Shown: in pieces, positions 3,881 through 15,253 of the stretch
Numbering within the stretch: the first letter of the stretch is position 1
Layout of the letters: each line of letters opens with the position of its first letter
DNA from: a virus
IMG/VR virus record: IMGVR_UViG_3300027917_000157
Span: 1-26,356 of that record
Direction: 5' to 3' (one strand)
Length of the DNA stretch: 26,356 nucleotides
Position numbers and translations under genes: made by a program
The notes under the pieces: generated by a model
What the model was told of the DNA's origin: nothing
What the model saw: only the letters and a program-made list of their open reading frames with translations
Databases searched by the model: none

Positions 3881-5181
3881 CTTTTATCCCCAAATGTATC
3901 TCTAATTAATTTTAATGAAGTATAAGAGTTATTTGTATCTATGTGGTGACATAGTTCTTTTATCATATATTTACCAGATACTTGTCTATCCCATTCTGTT
4001 TCTCCTGGAATAACTGTAATTTCTGGAATGTTGCAATAAATGATATCTCCAGCATTAAGATCAAAGTTGCAAGGTATCATAATACTCAGTGATTGGGTTA
4101 ATAATAAATTATATCTCATCAACGACTGAGATTGATAATTTAATGGGTCTGAGTTTAGATCTTTAGATACATCTTGATCTATAGTTCCGATATCTAATAT
4201 TTGTGTAAATATTCTTGAAGGGACTTCTCCAAGAGTTAGTGGAGATGATGGGTTAATTTTAGGTAATTTAGGTCTTCTTCCTAATGTTTCTACTTTTTTA
4301 TCAAAAGTATAAAGTCCTTCTTCTGGACTATTAATGGTAAAATTTAAAGGATTAAAGAATATTCTTTGGCTAGAGAATGCACCTAATCGAAGTTTTTCAA
4401 CTACATCTTGATTCCTATCGATGTAATAATTAAGAATATTAAATTCATTGTTTTTCTTTTCTATTCCATCAAACATCGCAATATCTTCAGAGTATGAATA
4501 CTCATACTTAACGTCTTGTGTAACTAACCCATCTAATGATCTAAAATTAAATGCTTCTTTTGTTTGATAGAATACAAATCCTGCGTTAGCATTTTTCCCC
4601 TCAGGAACTGCCTTAGAGGCTAACCATACCAGTACAGTGAATGGCTTTTTTAAGTTACCAATAAACCCATAAGGATTTTGAGTCTTATCTACGACACTAT
4701 TCTTATTGATAAGCAGACTCTCTTCCATAATTTCTTTAACAGATTCGTCAATTGTGTAATCTGTAGGAAATCTTTTTACCACTCTTGATGTTTCATTTGT
4801 AATGGCTTCTCTTGAGACTAGATTCAATGTGAATGATTCTTTATGTGCCTCTACGATTGCATTCTTGACACCAGAAACATAAAGATAGTTTTTAGGATTT
4901 GTAAAATCTAATCCAACTGGGATATTCTTAGAGTTTGGTGCTACTTTTAAAGAAACTCTTTCACCTCCACGCAATGGTAGGCCATTGTAAAGAGACATTA
5001 ACTTTCCACCTTCTCTAACTGTGGTTCCTACGTTTACAATGGTTAACTTCGCTGTAATTGTGGGGGAAAATATATCTTCATAATAGTCTAAGCTTACAGC
5101 ACCTTGAATTAAGTCAATGACTTTAGATCCATCATTTGATTCAATTTGTAATACTTCATATATAGATTTTTGTGTTGCCAT
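3877..5181 (-). CDS. gp27: baseplate hub protein, gp27-like
   Basis: This 434-residue protein fits the T4 gp27 hub family, whose trimer connects tail tube and gp5 spike. The N-terminus (SIYEVLQIESNDGSKVIDLIQGA, then SLDYYEDIFSPTITAKLTI) is typical of the first tube-like beta domain in cyanophage gp27 proteins. Further matching features are LPLRGGERVSLKV, a middle domain with the WLASKAVP stretch, and an end rich in beta strands (FDLNAGDIIYCNIPE, SGKYMIKELCHHID). Its length is close to T4 gp27 (391 residues). The start overlaps the upstream stop by one base (TAATG) and the stop overlaps the gp5-like start by four, so the four hub genes appear translationally coupled. Confidence 0.85.
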   Translation of the reverse strand: MATQKSIYEVLQIESNDGSKVIDLIQGAVSLDYYEDIFSPTITAKLTIVNVGTTVREGGKLMSLYNGLPLRGGERVSLKVAPNSKNIPVGLDFTNPKNYLYVSGVKNAIVEAHKESFTLNLVSREAITNETSRVVKRFPTDYTIDESVKEIMEESLLINKNSVVDKTQNPYGFIGNLKKPFTVLVWLASKAVPEGKNANAGFVFYQTKEAFNFRSLDGLVTQDVKYEYSYSEDIAMFDGIEKKNNEFNILNYYIDRNQDVVEKLRLGAFSSQRIFFNPLNFTINSPEEGLYTFDKKVETLGRRPKLPKINPSSPLTLGEVPSRIFTQILDIGTIDQDVSKDLNSDPLNYQSQSLMRYNLLLTQSLSIMIPCNFDLNAGDIIYCNIPEITVIPGETEWDRQVSGKYMIKELCHHIDTNNSYTSLKLIRDTFGDKR

Positions 5182-7262
5182 TAGACGTATGAAAGTGCTA
5201 TAAGTAGTCTCTTCTTCATATAAGTTTGAATCATTGAAGAATATGTTGTTTGTCTGTTAGATACTTCAGAAGAAGGTACACTTGTTTTGACATTCTGGGC
5301 ACTTGGGATTTGTACTGCTGCAATTATATCTTTAGGTTTATTGCTTGGAGTCAGATATGGTAGTGGAGTTGGAGCAGCACTAGACATTTGAGCAGAAGAA
5401 ATAGAAGGAGTGGGTGGCGGCAGAGTAGGTGCTGGAGGGGGAGATGTTGGAGAACTAACTTTTACTTCAGTATCTGGTTTACTAATACTATTTAACCACT
5501 TTCCAGGATCTATTGTGTCAGAAAATATATTTGATGATCCAATTTGCCAGTGAAGGTGTGGGCCAGTAGAACTACCTGTATTTCCACTTTGCCCTAGTAG
5601 TTGTCCTTTATTGAATTTCTGACCTTCCTTTAAGAATCCTGGACCCTTTAAGTGTCCGAATAAATGATGCTTCCCATATACAGAATCTTTCCATACAATA
5701 TAATAGCCAAATCCACCAGCGTCATATTGATTCATTCCCATAACACCAGGAAAATATGCATAGAGAGGAGTTCCAACAGCAACCCCGACATCATAACCTC
5801 TATGGAGTCTTCCGTCACGCTTACCATATCCAGATGTAAGGGTTCCTGATTTTCCTTTCAAGAATGGACTTATTGGAGTTGAAATCTCTTTATACCCTTG
5901 AGATTTGCCAGTGTCTCCAGTTAGAGCAGATAACTTTGAATCAGTCAACGAACCAGTTTTTGCCTGGGACGTATTAGATGATTTCTTTTGAGTGTCTCTT
6001 GCCAGTTTTAGTGCTGCTTGTATTTTTTCTGGGCTTATTAATGCTCTATTTCCTCCTGGACCTTCTTTATAAAGGGATTCTCCTTTTTTGATATCTACTA
6101 CTGGAAGTTCTCCATTATATGATCCACGCTTCATATCAAATGGGACACCAACAGAAGCAAACTCAGCGGCTAACTCTAGATTGGCCCGTTCAATGTCGGA
6201 CACTTGGCCTGTTATAAATTTACCTACAACTGGTCTTTTTCTTTCTATTGTGTAATTCTTATATTTTTCTTGAATCTCTGGTGTAAATTTTGTAGTCTTA
6301 CGATCATACCCTTTGGATTCTAGATATTGAACAAATCCTGGCATTGTTATACCAATAATTTGATATTTACCTACAGCAGATACTCGACCACTAGCTTGTG
6401 CTGCCATGATTTCAGCAAGAGTCATATCTCTTAGGTTTTTACCTAGCCAATTTTTAGCTGGACCTTTACTATCACCAGACTCTCCCCTATTCATGGACTC
6501 ATAACCACCTTCCTTTTCACCAATAGTTTTAAATAATGCATCAACTCCACCTTCTACAGGCATATCGGTATCAAAATCAGGAGCGGGACCTTCTGCTTCA
6601 GCCCCCCCAAACGTTCCAACTAATCCTGAATCTGTAGCTGTAAGTAATGGAGTAGTAATTAACTTAATTCCATTTTCAAATTCTACTCCTATTTCTTCTA
6701 TGGATCCTGTTAATTCATTAAAAGAATTTCTAATTCGGTTAGAATCATCTGAAAAATCAAATTCCATTAAGTTTTTTCTAATACCATCAATCATACCAAA
6801 AGTAGATGTAAAAATCTTGATAGTATTATCGAGAACCGATTTAATAATTTCACCCGCTTTATTAAGTCGGAACATAAACTCTTTTGCTCTAGCTACCCAT
6901 ATAGGTAAATCTTTTATAATCCACCCAGCAAACAGCAGAGATACTGTTTTGAGTATTCTATCTAATATACTTCCACCTCCAATACTAGAAACCCTACCTA
7001 ATGCTAGTGGATCAAATGACTTTTTTTGAACAATTGAGGTAGCCTCTAATTCTGATTCTCTAATTTGTGATCTAATTAAGGTTTCTCTCTTTCTTCTAAT
7101 ACCTAGAATATCATCATAAGCATCTTCTCTTGCTTTAGTTCTATCAACTAACTGTTTATTGATACCTTTTAAACTTAGTTGAGAAGTTTTTAATAAATCA
7201 ATACTTCCTTTGTTAAAGTTAATGGTAGATTCTTTTGGTGGTAGTAAAGCTAACTGTGCCAT
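5181..7262 (-). CDS. baseplate hub protein with lysozyme/transglycosylase-like and M23 peptidase domains
   Basis: This is a 693-residue hub-operon protein. Residues 1-200 are helical and include a hydrophobic segment with LFAGWIIKD at 110-118. Residues 240-375 resemble a lambda-R-type muramidase/transglycosylase: an EGG(Y) with candidate catalytic E251 and the signature SAVGKYQ ending at 301. Residues 470-580 form an M23 endopeptidase with the zinc ligands H487xxxD491 and H569xH571 plus H537 in FGHL. Residues 600-640 are a proline-rich linker. One enzyme would cut glycan strands, the other peptide crosslinks, both delivered at the tail tip. The gp5-like neighbour lacks lysozyme, so this protein probably supplies cell-wall digestion during DNA entry. 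M23 assignment is strong; the glycan-cleaving assignment rests mainly on the GKYQ motif. Confidence 0.85.
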   Translation of the reverse strand: MAQLALLPPKESTINFNKGSIDLLKTSQLSLKGINKQLVDRTKAREDAYDDILGIRRKRETLIRSQIRESELEATSIVQKKSFDPLALGRVSSIGGGSILDRILKTVSLLFAGWIIKDLPIWVARAKEFMFRLNKAGEIIKSVLDNTIKIFTSTFGMIDGIRKNLMEFDFSDDSNRIRNSFNELTGSIEEIGVEFENGIKLITTPLLTATDSGLVGTFGGAEAEGPAPDFDTDMPVEGGVDALFKTIGEKEGGYESMNRGESGDSKGPAKNWLGKNLRDMTLAEIMAAQASGRVSAVGKYQIIGITMPGFVQYLESKGYDRKTTKFTPEIQEKYKNYTIERKRPVVGKFITGQVSDIERANLELAAEFASVGVPFDMKRGSYNGELPVVDIKKGESLYKEGPGGNRALISPEKIQAALKLARDTQKKSSNTSQAKTGSLTDSKLSALTGDTGKSQGYKEISTPISPFLKGKSGTLTSGYGKRDGRLHRGYDVGVAVGTPLYAYFPGVMGMNQYDAGGFGYYIVWKDSVYGKHHLFGHLKGPGFLKEGQKFNKGQLLGQSGNTGSSTGPHLHWQIGSSNIFSDTIDPGKWLNSISKPDTEVKVSSPTSPPPAPTLPPPTPSISSAQMSSAAPTPLPYLTPSNKPKDIIAAVQIPSAQNVKTSVPSSEVSNRQTTYSSMIQTYMKKRLLIALSYV

Positions 7263-7263
7263 T

Positions 7264-8925
7264 TTATAATACTACATTATAGTGCATTCTAGAAAACATT
7301 ACATAGATATTATCATCATTAGATGATGATACAAACGGAACCTTTAATTTTGAAGGTCCACTATTATCATTGGATGTTGGTCTTTTTTCTGGAATTGGAG
7401 TTACAATTACATTAGGTTCTTCTGGTTCTACGGGAGGAAGACTCTTAACAAGAGGTTTTGTAGATTCTATCTTTTCAGGAGAAACCTTAGTTGTAGTTGC
7501 AGGTAATGGTATAGGAGAATCTGAAATACTTTCTATATCTGTTGCAGAAAATGCAAATGTATTTAAATTTGGAGTTACTGATAGTTTAGTGTTTTTACTA
7601 AAGTCATATTCAATATCCCCTTCTTCGTTATTAAAATTAACCGTATAATCTTTAGGTGTTGGTGTTAACGTAGCAGATGGAGTGACTATAGATGTTTCTT
7701 TTTCCTCTTTTGTTGGTGGAGTTTCTCCGGTAAATGGAGCAGAATATTCTTTAGTTGGCTTTACTTCTTTAACATTATCCTTTTTTTCTTTTTCTTTGGC
7801 TTTCTTTTCAGGCTCTTTAGATTCAGGTGTTTTACCAGTAAACCAATCGTATGCATTTTTAGCCATATCAGTTCCTAAGAAACTAGCAACTAACATTGCT
7901 GGAATCTTAACTAATGGATGTGGAGGAACTACTGCTGCTGCTACTTTTGCTGCCGCAGCCGCTCCTGTTGCTCCGACAACTGCCTTCTTTGGATCTTCAC
8001 CCATAAAGATATCAATACCACTCTGAAAGGTAATTCCGGGTATTAATCCTTTTCCGAGTCCTTTTGTAAAATTCTTAACCCCTCCCCAGAATCCTTGAGC
8101 TTTAGGTAATTTTGGGGCAGATGGTATAACTGGTCCTGCACCGGGTTTTTTACCACCAGGACCAGAAATTGGGCCTGTTGGTAGAGTAAATTTACTAAAT
8201 ATCTTCCCTAATGCAATAAAGGGAAGCCTAATCAAATTATAAGCTAACTTAGTTAAGGTTTTAGTTAGAGTAGTTAACGTAAATTTAACTAGACCAATAC
8301 CACCTTTAATTGCAGCCAGAGTTAACAAACCAAATTTAAGATGGTTCATTAACCTAGTTTTAACGGTAGTTAATCCATCCTCATTTTTATTACTCCATAA
8401 TTGTAATGCTTTTATACTATCTTGAGCAATCCACCCAACAAATAATGCAGTGATAGCTTTAGCTACATTACCAAAAATGCCTTGCACTCTTGCAGTTACA
8501 GCTTGAACCGGAGAAATAACTGCATTTTCTATTTTTCTTTCTAACTGACTTTCATTATATCTTCTTATTTTTTGATCAAAAAACTGTTGTTCTTGATCTT
8601 TTTCTTCCTGTAAAAGTCTCTGTTCAGAGGCAGTATCTTGTTGGAACAGTATACCCATTTGGGTAATTCCGTTTGTTAAAGTAGTCAGTTGTTTCTGAAT
8701 ACTATTAAACTGCTCTTGAATTGTAGAAAGCTTAGCGTCTTGTTCGTTTACTTTTTGTGCATAATCTTTAGACAGTTCTGTAAACTTTTGTTTAGATTGT
8801 AATGATGAACCACTTATATTCTCGGAAACAGTATTATTGAAGGTTACAGTCCTACTTCTAAAAGAATTTAAATTCTCTTGAGATAATGGGGATCCACCTA
8901 ACATTCCTTGATTTGGATTAACCAT
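7264..8925 (-). CDS. coiled-coil hub/tape-measure-like tail protein
   Basis: This 553-residue protein lies where the T4 hub/tape-measure gene 29 or a tail tape measure would be expected, directly after the gp26-like gene and its small partner. Residues 40-140 are predicted long coiled coil rich in Gln, Glu and Lys. Residues 155-240 contain hydrophobic helices with LFVGWIAQD at 161-169, followed by a Gly/Pro segment and an Ala-rich hydrophobic helix (about 315-352). The rest is a charged, Pro/Thr-rich, probably disordered tail. The LF(V/A)GWI(A/I)(Q/K)D motif is shared with the next hub protein. The start overlaps the upstream small ORF by eight bases. I infer a tape-measure or hub role by position and composition; no homology is certain. 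Confidence 0.6.
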   Translation of the reverse strand: MVNPNQGMLGGSPLSQENLNSFRSRTVTFNNTVSENISGSSLQSKQKFTELSKDYAQKVNEQDAKLSTIQEQFNSIQKQLTTLTNGITQMGILFQQDTASEQRLLQEEKDQEQQFFDQKIRRYNESQLERKIENAVISPVQAVTARVQGIFGNVAKAITALFVGWIAQDSIKALQLWSNKNEDGLTTVKTRLMNHLKFGLLTLAAIKGGIGLVKFTLTTLTKTLTKLAYNLIRLPFIALGKIFSKFTLPTGPISGPGGKKPGAGPVIPSAPKLPKAQGFWGGVKNFTKGLGKGLIPGITFQSGIDIFMGEDPKKAVVGATGAAAAAKVAAAVVPPHPLVKIPAMLVASFLGTDMAKNAYDWFTGKTPESKEPEKKAKEKEKKDNVKEVKPTKEYSAPFTGETPPTKEEKETSIVTPSATLTPTPKDYTVNFNNEEGDIEYDFSKNTKLSVTPNLNTFAFSATDIESISDSPIPLPATTTKVSPEKIESTKPLVKSLPPVEPEEPNVIVTPIPEKRPTSNDNSGPSKLKVPFVSSSNDDNIYVMFSRMHYNVVL

Positions 8926-9091
8926 TTTGCTTTCTCTTTAGTTCCTGTTCTTCGATATACTGCTCAAGTAAGGTAACATAAATTTCCTTTTCCCATGGAA
9001 TCATATTTTCCAATTCAGTCAAAGAGTATTTATGATGCTGCATAAGAGCAAAGTTTACTTGATAATATGACATTATATTTTCATGGATCAT
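8918..9091 (-). CDS. small tail-assembly-chaperone-like protein, -1 frame partner of the gp26-like gene
   Basis: This short frame ends in TAA at 8918-8920. It can start at ATG 9091, which overlaps the gp26-like TGA as ATGA (57 residues, MIHENIMSYYQVNF...), or at ATG 9073 (51 residues, MSYYQVNF...). The core HHKYSLTELENMIPWEKEIY followed by a charged helix looks like small tail-chaperone partners in other phages. It lies in the -1 frame relative to the gp26-like gene and that frame stays open back to 9118, across a slippery run at 9100-9109. It may therefore be made by reinitiation, by frameshift as a fusion, or both. It is far shorter than T4 gp51, so I do not use that name. Confidence 0.7.
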   Translation of the reverse strand: MIHENIMSYYQVNFALMQHHKYSLTELENMIPWEKEIYVTLLEQYIEEQELKRKQNG

Positions 9092-9816
9092 CCCGAGGTG
9101 AAAAAATTTGATAAGCCCTCAATTGTGTACTTACTCTTTATCTCAGTTTTTGGATTAAATACCTCTACCTCATGAGTTAGTTCTGGCATTGTATCAAAAA
9201 ACTTCTGAATCATTTTAAAGTGCTTAGGGGAAAGGCTCTCGATGAACTGCATTAGTTCTTTATCTGTGCATTCATCGGCAGCCCATACTGTATCATCACT
9301 ATAAACAGTATCGATACATGATGCAATAATCTCAAATGTATCTTCAACTCCAACTTCATTTTCAGATAGATTAAAGTTATTCTTTAAGAATTGTGAAAGA
9401 GATGGATATCTCATTCTTAATGTTAGAGTGTCGTCTAGTTTTATATCTTTACTGTGTTCTGGGTTGGGCTTAAATTTAATATCATCGATATTAATTTCTA
9501 CCTTTACTTTCGTCTCATTATCATCTGGGCAAACAATCATTACTTCTATAATTTCCCCAATAGATCTTGCACGAAGATTTAAAAACAAATATTCAATATC
9601 AAAAGATGATAATTGCTCTACCTTAACTCCTCGGGTAATAATGCAATTTTTAATAACAGTTTTAATTGCATTCGTAATCTGTTCGGGATCTTCACTTTGT
9701 TGTGCAATGATTAGAAGTTTTTCTTCTTTAACTAGGAATGGTCTATATGTTATCTTTTTTTCAGTAGATGGTAAAATCAACTCATATGTTGGAGTTGCAA
9801 TTTTTGGTAATGGCAT
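9088..9816 (-). CDS. gp26: baseplate hub assembly protein, gp26-like
   Basis: This 242-residue protein fits the T4 baseplate-hub gp26 family: it begins MPLPKIATPTYELILPST and includes the YRPFLVKEEKLLIIA block, a helical section with NAIKTVIKNCI, and a DxxYLFLNLRARSIGE motif at about residues 75-90. Proteins of this type also resemble tail assembly chaperones. It is the first gene of the minus-strand tail operon, with a late-type promoter motif 23 bases before the ATG. The end, TCA AAT TTT TTC, contains two overlapping canonical -1 slippery heptamers just before the stop, so part of the product may continue into the small downstream frame as a fusion of about 299 residues. Confidence 0.85.
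   Translation of the reverse strand: MPLPKIATPTYELILPSTEKKITYRPFLVKEEKLLIIAQQSEDPEQITNAIKTVIKNCIITRGVKVEQLSSFDIEYLFLNLRARSIGEIIEVMIVCPDDNETKVKVEINIDDIKFKPNPEHSKDIKLDDTLTLRMRYPSLSQFLKNNFNLSENEVGVEDTFEIIASCIDTVYSDDTVWAADECTDKELMQFIESLSPKHFKMIQKFFDTMPELTHEVEVFNPKTEIKSKYTIEGLSNFFTSG
9100..9109 (-). promoter_or_regulatory. candidate -1 ribosomal frameshift site
   Basis: On the minus strand the sequence is AAATTTTTTC. In the gp26-like frame it reads A AAT TTT TTC, so it holds two overlapping X XXY YYZ heptamers (AAATTTT and TTTTTTC). A -1 slip on the first gives 238 gp26-like residues, then FHLGMIHENI and the 51-residue small ORF. This is seen directly; use of the site is inference from the known frameshift between the two chaperone genes before the tape measure in many tailed phages. 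Confidence 0.55.
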
Positions 9817-11311: not shown

Positions 11312-12316
11312 ATGATTTTTACCAATGAATGTATATCTGTGGGGGGAAGTATTCACCCACTTATGGTTCCTTCTGAGACATTGAAAGGACCAGCATTGAC
11401 TAATCCATCAGTGTATTTCGATAGGGCCACTGGTAAACTATTGGTTAATATACGAAACATCAATTATACCCTTTACCATTCTGAAAAGAAAAAATACGAG
11501 CACCCATGGGGACCATTAGTTTATATTCATCCTGAAAATGATCAGCACCTAAGAACCTGGAATATTTTATGTGAACTAGATGAAGATATGCGAATTATAA
11601 ACTATTCTCATATCGATACAACAGCTTTTCCTAATAAAGAATTATGGGAATTTGTTGGGTTAGAGGATTGCAGAATAGTTAGATGGGATGATAAACTGTT
11701 TTGCTGTGGTGTTAGACGAGACTTAGATACTGTAGGAACTGGGCGAATGGAACTATCCGAGATAGAAATTTGTGATAACTTTACGGTTACTGAAGTCAAT
11801 CAAATTAGAATGCCTATACCTAACGAAGGAGTAAAAGAGTCGTATTGTGAAAAAAATTGGATGCCTATTGAGTCTATGCCCTACCACTTTGTAAAGTGGA
11901 CAAATGGCACAGAAGTAGTTCGATATGATCCAATAACAAATACAACAGAAACTGTAACACTAAAAGAATGGAGAGATGGTCTTAATAATGCAGACTTAAG
12001 AGGGGGTAGTCAGGTTATAGAACTAAATGGATACCATGTGGCACTTGAGCATGAAACCTATCTATTTAAGAGTCCTGCTGGTCGAAAAGACGGCAAATAT
12101 CTCCATAGATTTATTGTTTGGGATAATTCTTGGAACATTGTAAAGGTATCTCAATTGTTTTCATTTATGGGAGCTGATGTTGAATTTGCAGTAGGACTGA
12201 CTGAATATAAAAATGACATATTAATGACATTTGGATTTCAAGATAACGCAGCATATTTACTTAAAGTTCCTAAACAGAACTTGATTAACTTTATATTTAA
12301 TGACTCTATCGTTTAA
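11312..12316 (+). CDS. GH130/GH43-like five-bladed beta-propeller glycosidase or phosphorylase
   Basis: This 334-residue protein has repeated propeller blades with motifs resembling GH130 phosphorylases and related GH32/43/68 folds: NPSVYFDRATGKLLVNIRN (31-49), GLEDCRIV with the acidic ED (116-123), EKNWMPIE (180-187) and RGGSQVIELNGYHVALEHE (230-248). Members often act on beta-mannosides or other oligosaccharides by phosphorolysis. Viral relatives sit beside glycosyltransferases, as here, and may be binding modules or transferase partners. The stop overlaps the GT11-like start by 17 bases. The fold is fairly secure; substrate and activity are unknown. Confidence 0.68.
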   Translation: MIFTNECISVGGSIHPLMVPSETLKGPALTNPSVYFDRATGKLLVNIRNINYTLYHSEKKKYEHPWGPLVYIHPENDQHLRTWNILCELDEDMRIINYSHIDTTAFPNKELWEFVGLEDCRIVRWDDKLFCCGVRRDLDTVGTGRMELSEIEICDNFTVTEVNQIRMPIPNEGVKESYCEKNWMPIESMPYHFVKWTNGTEVVRYDPITNTTETVTLKEWRDGLNNADLRGGSQVIELNGYHVALEHETYLFKSPAGRKDGKYLHRFIVWDNSWNIVKVSQLFSFMGADVEFAVGLTEYKNDILMTFGFQDNAAYLLKVPKQNLINFIFNDSIV

Positions 12317-13052
12317 TAACTTAGGAAATATGGGACGTTTGGGAAACCAAATGTTCCAATTTGCTGCTCTATATGGGATCAGTAGTAATATGAGATACCA
12401 GTTTATGGTTCCTAAGACTAACATTGAACTATACGATGAATTTGATATTCCTAATAGAATAGGTTTAAGTTCATTTAAAACTATTAGTCCTGAAAGTTTT
12501 GGGTTCGATAAAAAACTATTTGAAAGATGCTCACCATTATCAGATTTGTGTGGGTATTTTCAGACAGAAAAATACTTCTTAAATCAAAAAGAAAGTATTA
12601 AGTTATTTTATACATTCAAACCTTGGACTCAAAAAATTGCGAAGCATTATTTAGACAGTAAATTCAGAGAACAGGAAGTTATTTCAATTCATATTCGTAG
12701 GGGAGATTACCTCACAGATGATGGTTTTGTTAATTTATCTCTAACGTATTATGAGAACGCGTTAAAAATATTACCTGAACGAAATGTTTTAATTTTTAGT
12801 GACGACATAGAGTGGTGTAAGTTAAACTTTATAGGAGACAAGTTTACCTTTATAGATACTTCAAATCATTTCTTGGATTTATGTTTAATGAGTATGTGTC
12901 ATTATCACGTTATTGCCAATTCATCCTTTAGCTGGTGGGGGTCTTGGTTATCTACCAGCAAAAAAACAATTGCTCCCACACAATGGTTTGATAACCATTA
13001 TAAGTATTGGGATATTATAGACATTTACTGCCCTAATTGGAAGATATTATGA
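12300..13052 (+). CDS. GT11-family alpha-1,2-fucosyltransferase-like glycosyltransferase
   Basis: This 250-residue protein carries the GT11 signatures: GRLGNQMFQ at residues 12-20, the nucleotide-sugar binding HIRRGDY at 131-137, and DLCLMSMCHYHVIANSSFSWWGSWL spanning about 193-217. Family members transfer L-fucose from GDP-fucose, usually in alpha-1,2 linkage to galactose, on bacterial surface glycans. The length is typical or slightly short, with no gap in key motifs, so it looks active. ATG at 12300 places the GRLGNQ motif 11 residues in, as expected. It is translationally overlapped on both sides. The acceptor may be host LPS or a phage glycoprotein; the sequence does not decide. Confidence 0.9.
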   Translation: MTLSFNNLGNMGRLGNQMFQFAALYGISSNMRYQFMVPKTNIELYDEFDIPNRIGLSSFKTISPESFGFDKKLFERCSPLSDLCGYFQTEKYFLNQKESIKLFYTFKPWTQKIAKHYLDSKFREQEVISIHIRRGDYLTDDGFVNLSLTYYENALKILPERNVLIFSDDIEWCKLNFIGDKFTFIDTSNHFLDLCLMSMCHYHVIANSSFSWWGSWLSTSKKTIAPTQWFDNHYKYWDIIDIYCPNWKIL

Positions 13053-15253
13053 GTATATCACTTATCTGTGCTTGTAAAAATAGAATAGCACCACTAAAAG
13101 TATCATTAGCTTCTTGGTTATGTTTTCCTGAAATCAAGGAAATCATAATTGTAAACTGGAGTTCTGATAATGATAAAGAATTAAATGAACTTATTAAACT
13201 TAGTGGTCATATTAAGATTATTAATGTATTTGATGAGAAGTATTTTAATATACCACAACCATTAAATCTTGCTGCCAGTGTGGCAACTCAAGAATACATA
13301 TTAAAAATGGACTCAGATTATATTCTTAATCCATATTTTAACTTCTTTGACACCTACCCAATAGATGACAATACATTTATTTGCGGTCAACCTGATGTAA
13401 AAAATTACGAAACTCTTCATCCTATTACTGGAAGCCCTGTAATTGATATTACTAAGCTTTCTTTATATGAAGCTAAAGAATATATTAATTCAATTAGTTC
13501 CTACTTCAAATATCTACGAGGTCTTCTTTTCGTTAAAAGAGACAACTTTATTAAAGTTGGAGGGTATAATGAAAATCTAGGAAGATACTATGCATTTGAA
13601 GATGATGAATTATCAATGCGCCTAGAGCTTTTGGGGTTAACGAAAGTTAATATAAAATATGATCACTCTATGATTCATATTCCTCATCAAGATATTAAAA
13701 GAATTGAAAACTTTGAGGGATATGATACAGAAGACCAGAAAAAATATCTAGAGACTGTTAATACTAACGAAGAAAAGTGGGATTTAGAATACTTTTTTGC
13801 ACAGGAGCATATTCAAAATAATAAAAAAGAATATGAATTTCCTACTGAATATTACTCTCAGCCTAAGTATTCTTGGAATATTACTAAAGTTGAAGATCAG
13901 ATTTACTATGCAAAAAAACAAAATATAAGTAAACTGTCTGGGTTTCCAAAAGTAACTTGCATATCTTTATCTGAAAGTAAAACAAGAAGAGATAATATAA
14001 TTGCACAGTTCAAACAATATGATAGTAGTATTTCAGTAGACTTTCTAATATCTGAAAGATTTGATGAAACTCAATATTCTGTATCTGGAGAATATGTAGA
14101 TACATTGAATTCTGGAACCAAAGGATGTGCTATTTCACATATTCAAGCACTTAAGAAATTTGTAGAATCTGATGAAGAGTACATGTTCGTATGTGAGGAT
14201 GACTTATCATTAAAGACAGTACAGTATTGGGATTTTGACTGGAAAACAATTGTAGAATCATTACCTAACGACTGGGATTGCATTCAACTTTTGACAATTA
14301 GAGACACGTTTAACGATTTTAATTTAAGAATGCGAGAGTGGAATGACTGGGGGGCTACTGCATATCTTATCAAAAAAGAGTATGCTAAAACTATTGTTAA
14401 CGAATATACTAGGGGGCAAGAATACATTCTAGAGCTACCTATAGCAGGACTAATGCCTCTTGTAGAAAATCTTCTTTTCTTATTAGGTAAAGTCTATACT
14501 ATTCCATTATTTGTTGAAGAAGTTAACTACGAATCTACATTTGTTGATAGAGATCACGATGTACAAAATGGATCTAAAAATAATCATGTTAGTGCTCATG
14601 ATATTGTACTAAATTACTGGAAAAATAAAGCAAGAAAAAAACCTCTCAGTTTTTCTGTTAAGACTGTGAAAAAAGAACCAGCTAAAAAAACAGAACTAGA
14701 AGAACTTTTAACAACGTATTGCTCAGATGTAGAAAATGCAACCTATAATTTTAATCTAGGATTGTATTATCAGAAAGAAAATCAGAATGCAGCAGCATTC
14801 TCATTCTTCTTAAGAACTGCAGAAAGATCTAATTTTGATCTGTTAACATATCAATCTTTGATTCTTGGATCTAACGTTTATGATTCCCAAGGAACCAGAG
14901 ATGGAACTGCTAAAGCTATCTTACAACAAGCAATGTGTTTACTTCCTGAAAGACCAGAAGCAAGATTCTTACTCAGTCAGTTTTCGGAAAAGCGTCAATG
15001 GTGGCAAGATTCATATATCTATGCCAAAGAAGCATTAGAGAAATGCAACTTTGATGTTTCACCTCTTGATGTTAATGTTGGATATCCTGGTAGAGATGGA
15101 CTACACTTTCAGCAAGCACTCGCAGCCTGGTGGTGGGGAAAAATTGAAGAATCATCAAAAATATTCAATTACATCTTAACATCATATCCAAATAGCATAT
15201 ATACCGAAAAGGTATTACATAACCTAAAATATATCAACAATTCTATTAATTAA
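13049..15253 (+). CDS. GT2-GT25-TPR multidomain glycosyltransferase
   Basis: The best start is ATG at 13049. It overlaps the GT11 stop as ATGA and has GGAAGA upstream; an in-frame TTG at 13037 is less likely. The 734-residue product has three parts. Residues 1-215 are GT2-like (SLICACKNR, DxD in MDSDY at 88-90, YAFEDDELSMRL near 183). Residues 300-510 are GT25-like (CISLSESKTRRDNI, GTKGCAISHIQALKKF, VCEDDLSL near 381), as in LPS galactosyltransferases. From about 555 the protein is helical with TPR-like repeats (NFNLGLYYQKENQNAAAF, SEKRQWWQDSYIYAKEAL, ILTSYPNS). One chain could add two sugars in sequence, with the TPR part binding an acceptor or partner. Substrates are unknown. Confidence 0.85.
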   Translation: MSISLICACKNRIAPLKVSLASWLCFPEIKEIIIVNWSSDNDKELNELIKLSGHIKIINVFDEKYFNIPQPLNLAASVATQEYILKMDSDYILNPYFNFFDTYPIDDNTFICGQPDVKNYETLHPITGSPVIDITKLSLYEAKEYINSISSYFKYLRGLLFVKRDNFIKVGGYNENLGRYYAFEDDELSMRLELLGLTKVNIKYDHSMIHIPHQDIKRIENFEGYDTEDQKKYLETVNTNEEKWDLEYFFAQEHIQNNKKEYEFPTEYYSQPKYSWNITKVEDQIYYAKKQNISKLSGFPKVTCISLSESKTRRDNIIAQFKQYDSSISVDFLISERFDETQYSVSGEYVDTLNSGTKGCAISHIQALKKFVESDEEYMFVCEDDLSLKTVQYWDFDWKTIVESLPNDWDCIQLLTIRDTFNDFNLRMREWNDWGATAYLIKKEYAKTIVNEYTRGQEYILELPIAGLMPLVENLLFLLGKVYTIPLFVEEVNYESTFVDRDHDVQNGSKNNHVSAHDIVLNYWKNKARKKPLSFSVKTVKKEPAKKTELEELLTTYCSDVENATYNFNLGLYYQKENQNAAAFSFFLRTAERSNFDLLTYQSLILGSNVYDSQGTRDGTAKAILQQAMCLLPERPEARFLLSQFSEKRQWWQDSYIYAKEALEKCNFDVSPLDVNVGYPGRDGLHFQQALAAWWWGKIEESSKIFNYILTSYPNSIYTEKVLHNLKYINNSIN

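Follow-up and report, generated by a model that had tools for sequence, protein, structure and literature searches.

The gene 26 and 51 homologues of this T4-like virus probably form a tail assembly chaperone pair (TAC-N and TAC-NC) resembling G/GT of phage lambda, the longer product of which would be made by -1 frameshifting; we assign this reading a rough probability of 0.93. The window, i.e. the whole stretch of DNA that was analysed, spans 26,356 nucleotides (positions 1 to 26,356 of IMG/VR virus record IMGVR_UViG_3300027917_000157).

Very probably, some ribosomes shift into the -1 frame where gene 26 ends and thereby make a gp26-gp51 fusion. Most ribosomes would end gp26 at its TGA and release the short chaperone TAC-N. 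In a minority, with AAT-TTT-TTC in the decoding region, the upstream GAGGG would pair with the anti-Shine-Dalgarno sequence of the 16S rRNA, and the ribosome would move back by one nucleotide on T TTT TTC before reading 60 more codons, resulting in a 299-residue gp26-gp51 protein (TAC-NC). If lambda gpG/gpGT is a guide, the tape-measure protein would be coated by gp26, and tail-tube subunits or hub proteins would be brought in by the gp51 domain. We infer the slippage itself, its rate, the role of the Shine-Dalgarno (SD)-like element and the molecular and assembly roles of both products. The proteins have long been named 'baseplate hub' (gp26) and 'hub assembly catalyst' (gp51), and the roles given to them are contradictory (PMC3004832). 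One frameshift-made gp26/gp51 chaperone pair would represent a testable tail-assembly mechanism in very abundant marine phages.

Layout of the gene 26-51 junction

The gp26 frame ends on the minus strand with GAG GGC TTA TCA AAT TTT TTC ACC TCG GGA TGA (Table 1). Re-reading of the sequence confirmed the coordinates and length that the sequence-only reading had given for this end, for the -1 frame open from 9118 to 8918 and for a fusion of about 299 residues. The -1 frame is bounded by a TGA at 9121-9119 and a TAA at 8920-8918, and a -1 slip at T TTT TTC leads to a virtual fusion of 239 + 60 = 299 residues with the predicted junction peptide LSNFFHLGMIHENIMSYYQ. The ATGA overlap that had been placed at 9091 is real as well: the gp51 ATG (9091-9089) lies over the gp26 TGA (9090-9088), a 4-nt overlap at 9091-9088. 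Two heptamers had been named as canonical slippery sequences. Both are in phase, but conservation holds only for T TTT TTN; as the preceding codon is AAT in so few relatives (18/133), A AAT TTT is probably incidental, and it was rejected as a working slip site. The small ORF is present as claimed; left unnamed by the earlier reader, it is a gp51 homologue. It also matches the C-terminal end of the phrog_150 gp26 profile (positions 239-278 of 282), and a phrog_150 search of the window's own record gives a match that continues across the gp26/gp51 junction.

Table 1. Features at the gene 26-51 junction of the window and the gene that follows it.
Feature	Position	Strand	Evidence or remark
gp26 homologue, 242 aa, 0-frame product, TAC-N (putative)	9088..9816	-	PF12322 T4_baseplate, E 4.5e-71; phrog_150, E 3.4e-77
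GAGGG, internal SD-like, putative upstream stimulator	9116..9120	-	~9-10 nt before the heptamer
Second heptamer A AAT TTT, overlapping T TTT TTC, non-conserved	9103..9109	-	AAT as preceding codon in 18/133 relatives
Slippery heptamer T TTT TTC, 0-frame codons AAT TTT TTC	9100..9106	-	T TTT TTN kept in 133/134 non-redundant relatives
-1 frame extension, 60 codons + stop TAA; gp51 domain (putative TAC-C)	8918..9100	-	phrog_634
gp51 57-aa ORF as would be annotated, ATG at 9091-9089	8918..9091	-	phrog_634, E 2.5e-26
gp26 stop TGA, four codons past the heptamer (one or two in most relatives)	9088..9090	-	
553-aa protein in tape-measure position, hydrophobic central segment	7264..8925	-	homologues adjoin gp51 in related loci

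The downstream gene had been called tape-measure-like. Its position fits, but a family match is absent: the 553-aa protein has no PHROG match and one sub-threshold Pfam match only, and T4 gp29 shows no detectable similarity to either of the two downstream candidate tape-measure genes. In HTVC008M, the annotated putative tape measure lies two genes past gp51. By position, the 553-aa protein is a putative tape measure. It shares a weak local match around the hydrophobic segment with the product of the next gene, a 693-aa M23 peptidase gene (5181-7262, minus strand); the shared segment is LF(V/A)GWI, with an E-value of 3e-4 for a single comparison. The two genes are possibly a duplicated or split tape-measure gene.

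Elsewhere in the window, a collagen-repeat tail fibre gene (PF01391; 2-1060, minus strand) runs off the window end. Two adjacent genes on the plus strand (12300-15253) match the phage glycosyltransferase families phrog_2644 and phrog_2835; this pair sits between the tail genes and the thioredoxin, thymidylate synthase and PhoH-like genes.

The -1 extension and the routes to gp51

Loci encoding gp26 were gathered from IMG/VR contigs and phage records. Of the 268 usable loci, 134 were left at an 80% identity cut; the relatives compared are phylogenetically non-independent, which counts against the frameshift reading. In every locus uncut by a contig end, the open -1 extension spans 55-69 codons (60 in the window), and the remaining two frames over the same stretch are open in 0 of 264 tests. 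In 30 non-redundant loci, the first 14 codons of the extension contain no ATG, GTG or TTG. These start-less codons are coding, because differences at codon positions 1, 2 and 3 are 0.41, 0.34 and 0.59, respectively. The analysis shows the sequence elements, their conservation and the fact that the -1 frame is coding even ahead of its first start codon. As the peptide is conserved in these 30 loci, separate initiation is insufficient unless non-standard starts are used; the extension would be translated from the gp26 start.

Some free gp51 could still arise beside the fusion. Three features count against frameshifting in the window, namely a weak hairpin, a stop further from the heptamer than in relatives and an ATG for gp51 itself. 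Overlapping the gp26 stop, this ATG could also allow a separate gp51 to be made there. That both routes operate, a -1 frameshift yielding the fusion and re-initiation at ATG 9091 yielding some free gp51, is a possibility to which we give clearly less than even odds. An ATG is present near the extension start not only in the window but also in roughly half of its relatives; it is unconserved across the family, and free gp51 is therefore not generally needed. This dual production is compatible with the fusion reading rather than exclusive of it.

We consider it very improbable that translational coupling, giving a separate 57-aa protein, is the sole source of gp51, with ribosomes terminating at the TGA, restarting at the overlapping ATG and never making a fusion. 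The 4-nt ATGA overlap in the window speaks for such coupling, as does the first ATG being the fourth extension codon in 57 of 133 relatives. A further point in its favour is Vibrio phage K469 (L140, about 2660-2905; ACG CTT TTT GCG TAA TG), the sole non-redundant exception to the slippery run, which keeps the -1 arrangement, the gp51 frame and the overlap and has perhaps switched to re-initiation. However, 31 of 133 relatives lack ATG, GTG and TTG in the first 9 extension codons and nonetheless conserve the peptide, and re-initiation alone was rejected on account of the 30 start-less loci described above. Coupling also leaves unexplained why T TTT TTN is conserved in phase and absent at other Phe-Phe pairs. 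The SD-like element, moreover, lies ~25 nt before the ATG, further than normal initiation allows, but its placement suits a stimulator of -1 frameshifting.

Production of gp51 as the end of a frameshifted gp26 would also account for gp51 being missing, truncated or split in many annotations. In P-SSM2 and other phages, the gp51 profile match reaches back beyond the annotated gp51 start, still in the -1 frame. No gp51 is annotated in S-SSM4 and ACG-2014j, the extensions of which are start-less, nor in S-CAM7, the extension of which has an ATG. For HTVC008M, likewise start-less, and for Ochrobactrum phage OC, the annotation begins the small ORF past its conserved N-terminus. The records with a missing or late-started gp51 are loci L136, L138, L139, L083 and L084 (S-SSM4, S-CAM7, ACG-2014j, HTVC008M and Ochrobactrum phage OC). 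In none of the annotated relatives' records compared are gp26 and gp51 joined as one product.

Slippery run and putative stimulators among relatives

The sequence-only reading had proposed comparing the junction across T4-like relatives, with a missing run or a different phase as evidence against it. Both the run and the -1 phase turned out to be conserved: T TTT TTN lies in phase near the stop in 133 of 134 gp26 genes (<80% identical), usually one or two codons before it, with C (109), T (19), G (4) or A (1) as final base. Grouping at 40% identity gives 21 groups, 20 of which carry it, and phages bearing the signal are as distant as 22-26% identity in gp26. They range over the Kyanoviridae (including Pelagibacter and Ochrobactrum phages), the Pootjesviridae, Stenotrophomonas and Nitratidesulfovibrio phages and the Straboviridae outside T4's subfamily. 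This comparison shows the predicted -1 frameshift arrangement to be almost universal in this T4-like (cyanophage-type) group. The preference for TTTTTTC/T fits the shift-proneness of UUY codons and homogeneous heptamers (PMC4066793). In one close relative of Stenotrophomonas phage BUCT608, IMGVR_UViG_2974778117 (L125), the run at the gp26 3' end is one T short, with five and not six, which breaks the frame and represents a sequencing error or a mutation.

Among the relatives, pairing with the anti-SD peaks sharply just before the heptamer, with a mean of -6.9 kcal/mol for the 8-mer ending 7 nt upstream and values of ≤ -5 in 83%. At the SD-like site, Glu is encoded by GAG in 84 of 99 cases, whereas 20 of 92 Glu-Gly pairs elsewhere use this codon (p ~2e-19); selection therefore acts on the nucleotides and not on the amino acids alone. 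A GAGG that can pair with the anti-SD ~10 nt upstream is thus preserved at the synonymous level, in the window as well, which suggests a tuned gp26 : gp26-51 ratio. The rule for proven SD stimulators of -1 frameshifting, taken from PMC4066793, holds for the window and for 103 of 133 relatives, against an expectation of 59.9 from synonymous shuffles; elsewhere it holds at 10.8% of positions.

The RNA fold right after the heptamer is stabler than that of synonymous shuffles (z < -2) in 65 of 132 loci versus 7-10 of 132 elsewhere. A stable hairpin starting 4-10 nt past the heptamer, as in the published hairpin rule, occurs in 58 of 133 relatives versus about 12% of control positions. In one subfamily, the hairpin is a ten-pair stem (GTATGGCTCA/TGAGTCATAC) with a T-A to G-C replacement at one pair. 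A search for a stable hairpin in the window itself was negative: the weak downstream fold there (-3.9 kcal/mol, a z of +0.5 relative to synonymous shuffles) falls outside the published rule. Downstream hairpins are lineage-specific, occurring in about half of the relatives and not being evident in the window.

A change of frame by RNA polymerase slipping on the T run, and not by ribosomes, is likewise very improbable. A run of six or seven T is indeed present, and E. coli genes are depleted of T7 in every frame, possibly because of such slippage (PMC4066793). Most loci, however, have just six T, and the run always lies in the phase xxT TTT TTN suited to tandem tRNA slippage, whereas transcriptional slippage needs no phase; the SD-like element at ribosomal spacing and the downstream hairpin also indicate ribosomes. 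The chance that the run is a functionless by-product is negligible: the gp26 gene is AT-rich and its C-terminal Phe-Phe is conserved, but with these amino acids and the genes' own codon usage only ~54 of 133 loci should carry T TTT TTN, against 133 observed, and it occurs at 0 of 127 other Phe-Phe pairs of these genes; chance arising from AT richness was rejected on these grounds.

Protein relationships and known systems

The likeness to the lambda G/GT arrangement noticed in the sequence-only reading is backed by gene order, by a TAC-like N-terminal domain in gp26 and by the alignment of T4 gp51 along the fusion. For residues 1-88 of the AlphaFold (AF2) model of gp26 (pLDDT 87.5), the best VIA structural matches are 2ob9 (Z 7.7), 3fgx (7.7) and 3klu (7.0), aligned over 84-86 residues with an rmsd of 4.1-4.3. 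These structures are called tail assembly chaperones in PMC9603447; 2ob9 is HK97 gp13. The next match is an uncharacterised protein (Z 5.0), and the first clearly unrelated one has a Z of 4.0. Foldseek also places 2ob9 first, but weakly (E 0.43). As the Z-scores are middling and Foldseek alone is weak, the model gives moderate support for a TAC-N fold in the gp26 N-terminal domain. A PDB sequence search with the gp26 profile yielded nothing relevant, and the NCBIfam search gave no match.

T4 gp51 (249 aa) aligns along the whole virtual gp26-gp51 fusion. The C-terminus of T4 gp26 is an equivalent GLKEFF, encoded in gene 26 with GAG TTC TTT and hence without the slippery run, and T4 genes 26 and 51 are separate and on opposite strands. 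Judging by the split genes and the lost run, two genes seem to have taken the place of frameshifting in T4's group. We lean, by a modest margin, towards a broader generalization: outside T4's own group, gp51 would exist mainly or only as the C-terminal domain of the fusion, expressed through a bacterial dnaX-type composite signal under synonymous selection, consisting of an anti-SD-pairing GAGG ~10 nt before the heptamer, T TTT TTY itself and hairpins that are specific to lineages, and databases would systematically mis-annotate it.

Vladimirov, Gautam and Davidson reportedly found frameshifting to be conserved in several T4-like groups and T4 to use genes 26 and 51 separately. The sequence-only reading did not recall such an arrangement being described for T4-like phages, but the principle had already been described (Vladimirov, Gautam & Davidson, Virology 2022, 566:9-15). 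That study identified the T4-like chaperone genes and has since been cited for poly-T signals of -1 frameshifting in T4-like TAC-N genes and also for T4-likes with separate genes. Its T4-like pairs are the same gene pair (26/51) as in the window, which is therefore a well-supported further example of a known principle. The scale of the conservation, the SD-like stimulator kept at the synonymous level and the hairpins may be additions of the present analysis. In a 2016 review, T4 was still the exception among long-tailed phages (PMC5009743). Its split form has an independent, full-length TAC-N-plus-C gp51 apart from gene 26, whereas gp51 of the window is a 57-aa ORF overlapping the gp26 stop.

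The slippery heptamer of lambda G/GT is G GGA AAG, whereas the window has T TTT TTC close to an SD-like element, and the two systems have no sequence relationship. They are alike in having a short chaperone, a -1 slip near its 3' end (predicted for the window), a fused C-terminal domain and a position upstream of a large tail gene (PMC5009743). With dnaX and IS911-type signals, the locus shares an SD-like element upstream of the heptamer and, in many relatives, a hairpin downstream (PMC4066793, PMC3711429); it differs in the heptamer, T TTT TTY instead of A AAA AAG, and in a hairpin that is lineage-specific and not evident in the window. The Vandenendeviridae and Andersonviridae, as presented for Pseudomonas phage Adele in PMC12846349, belong to another phage group with the motif GTTTTT, and the account given there does not mention an SD-like element, but they likewise combine a TAC-N gene, a poly-T motif and a conserved open -1 frame.
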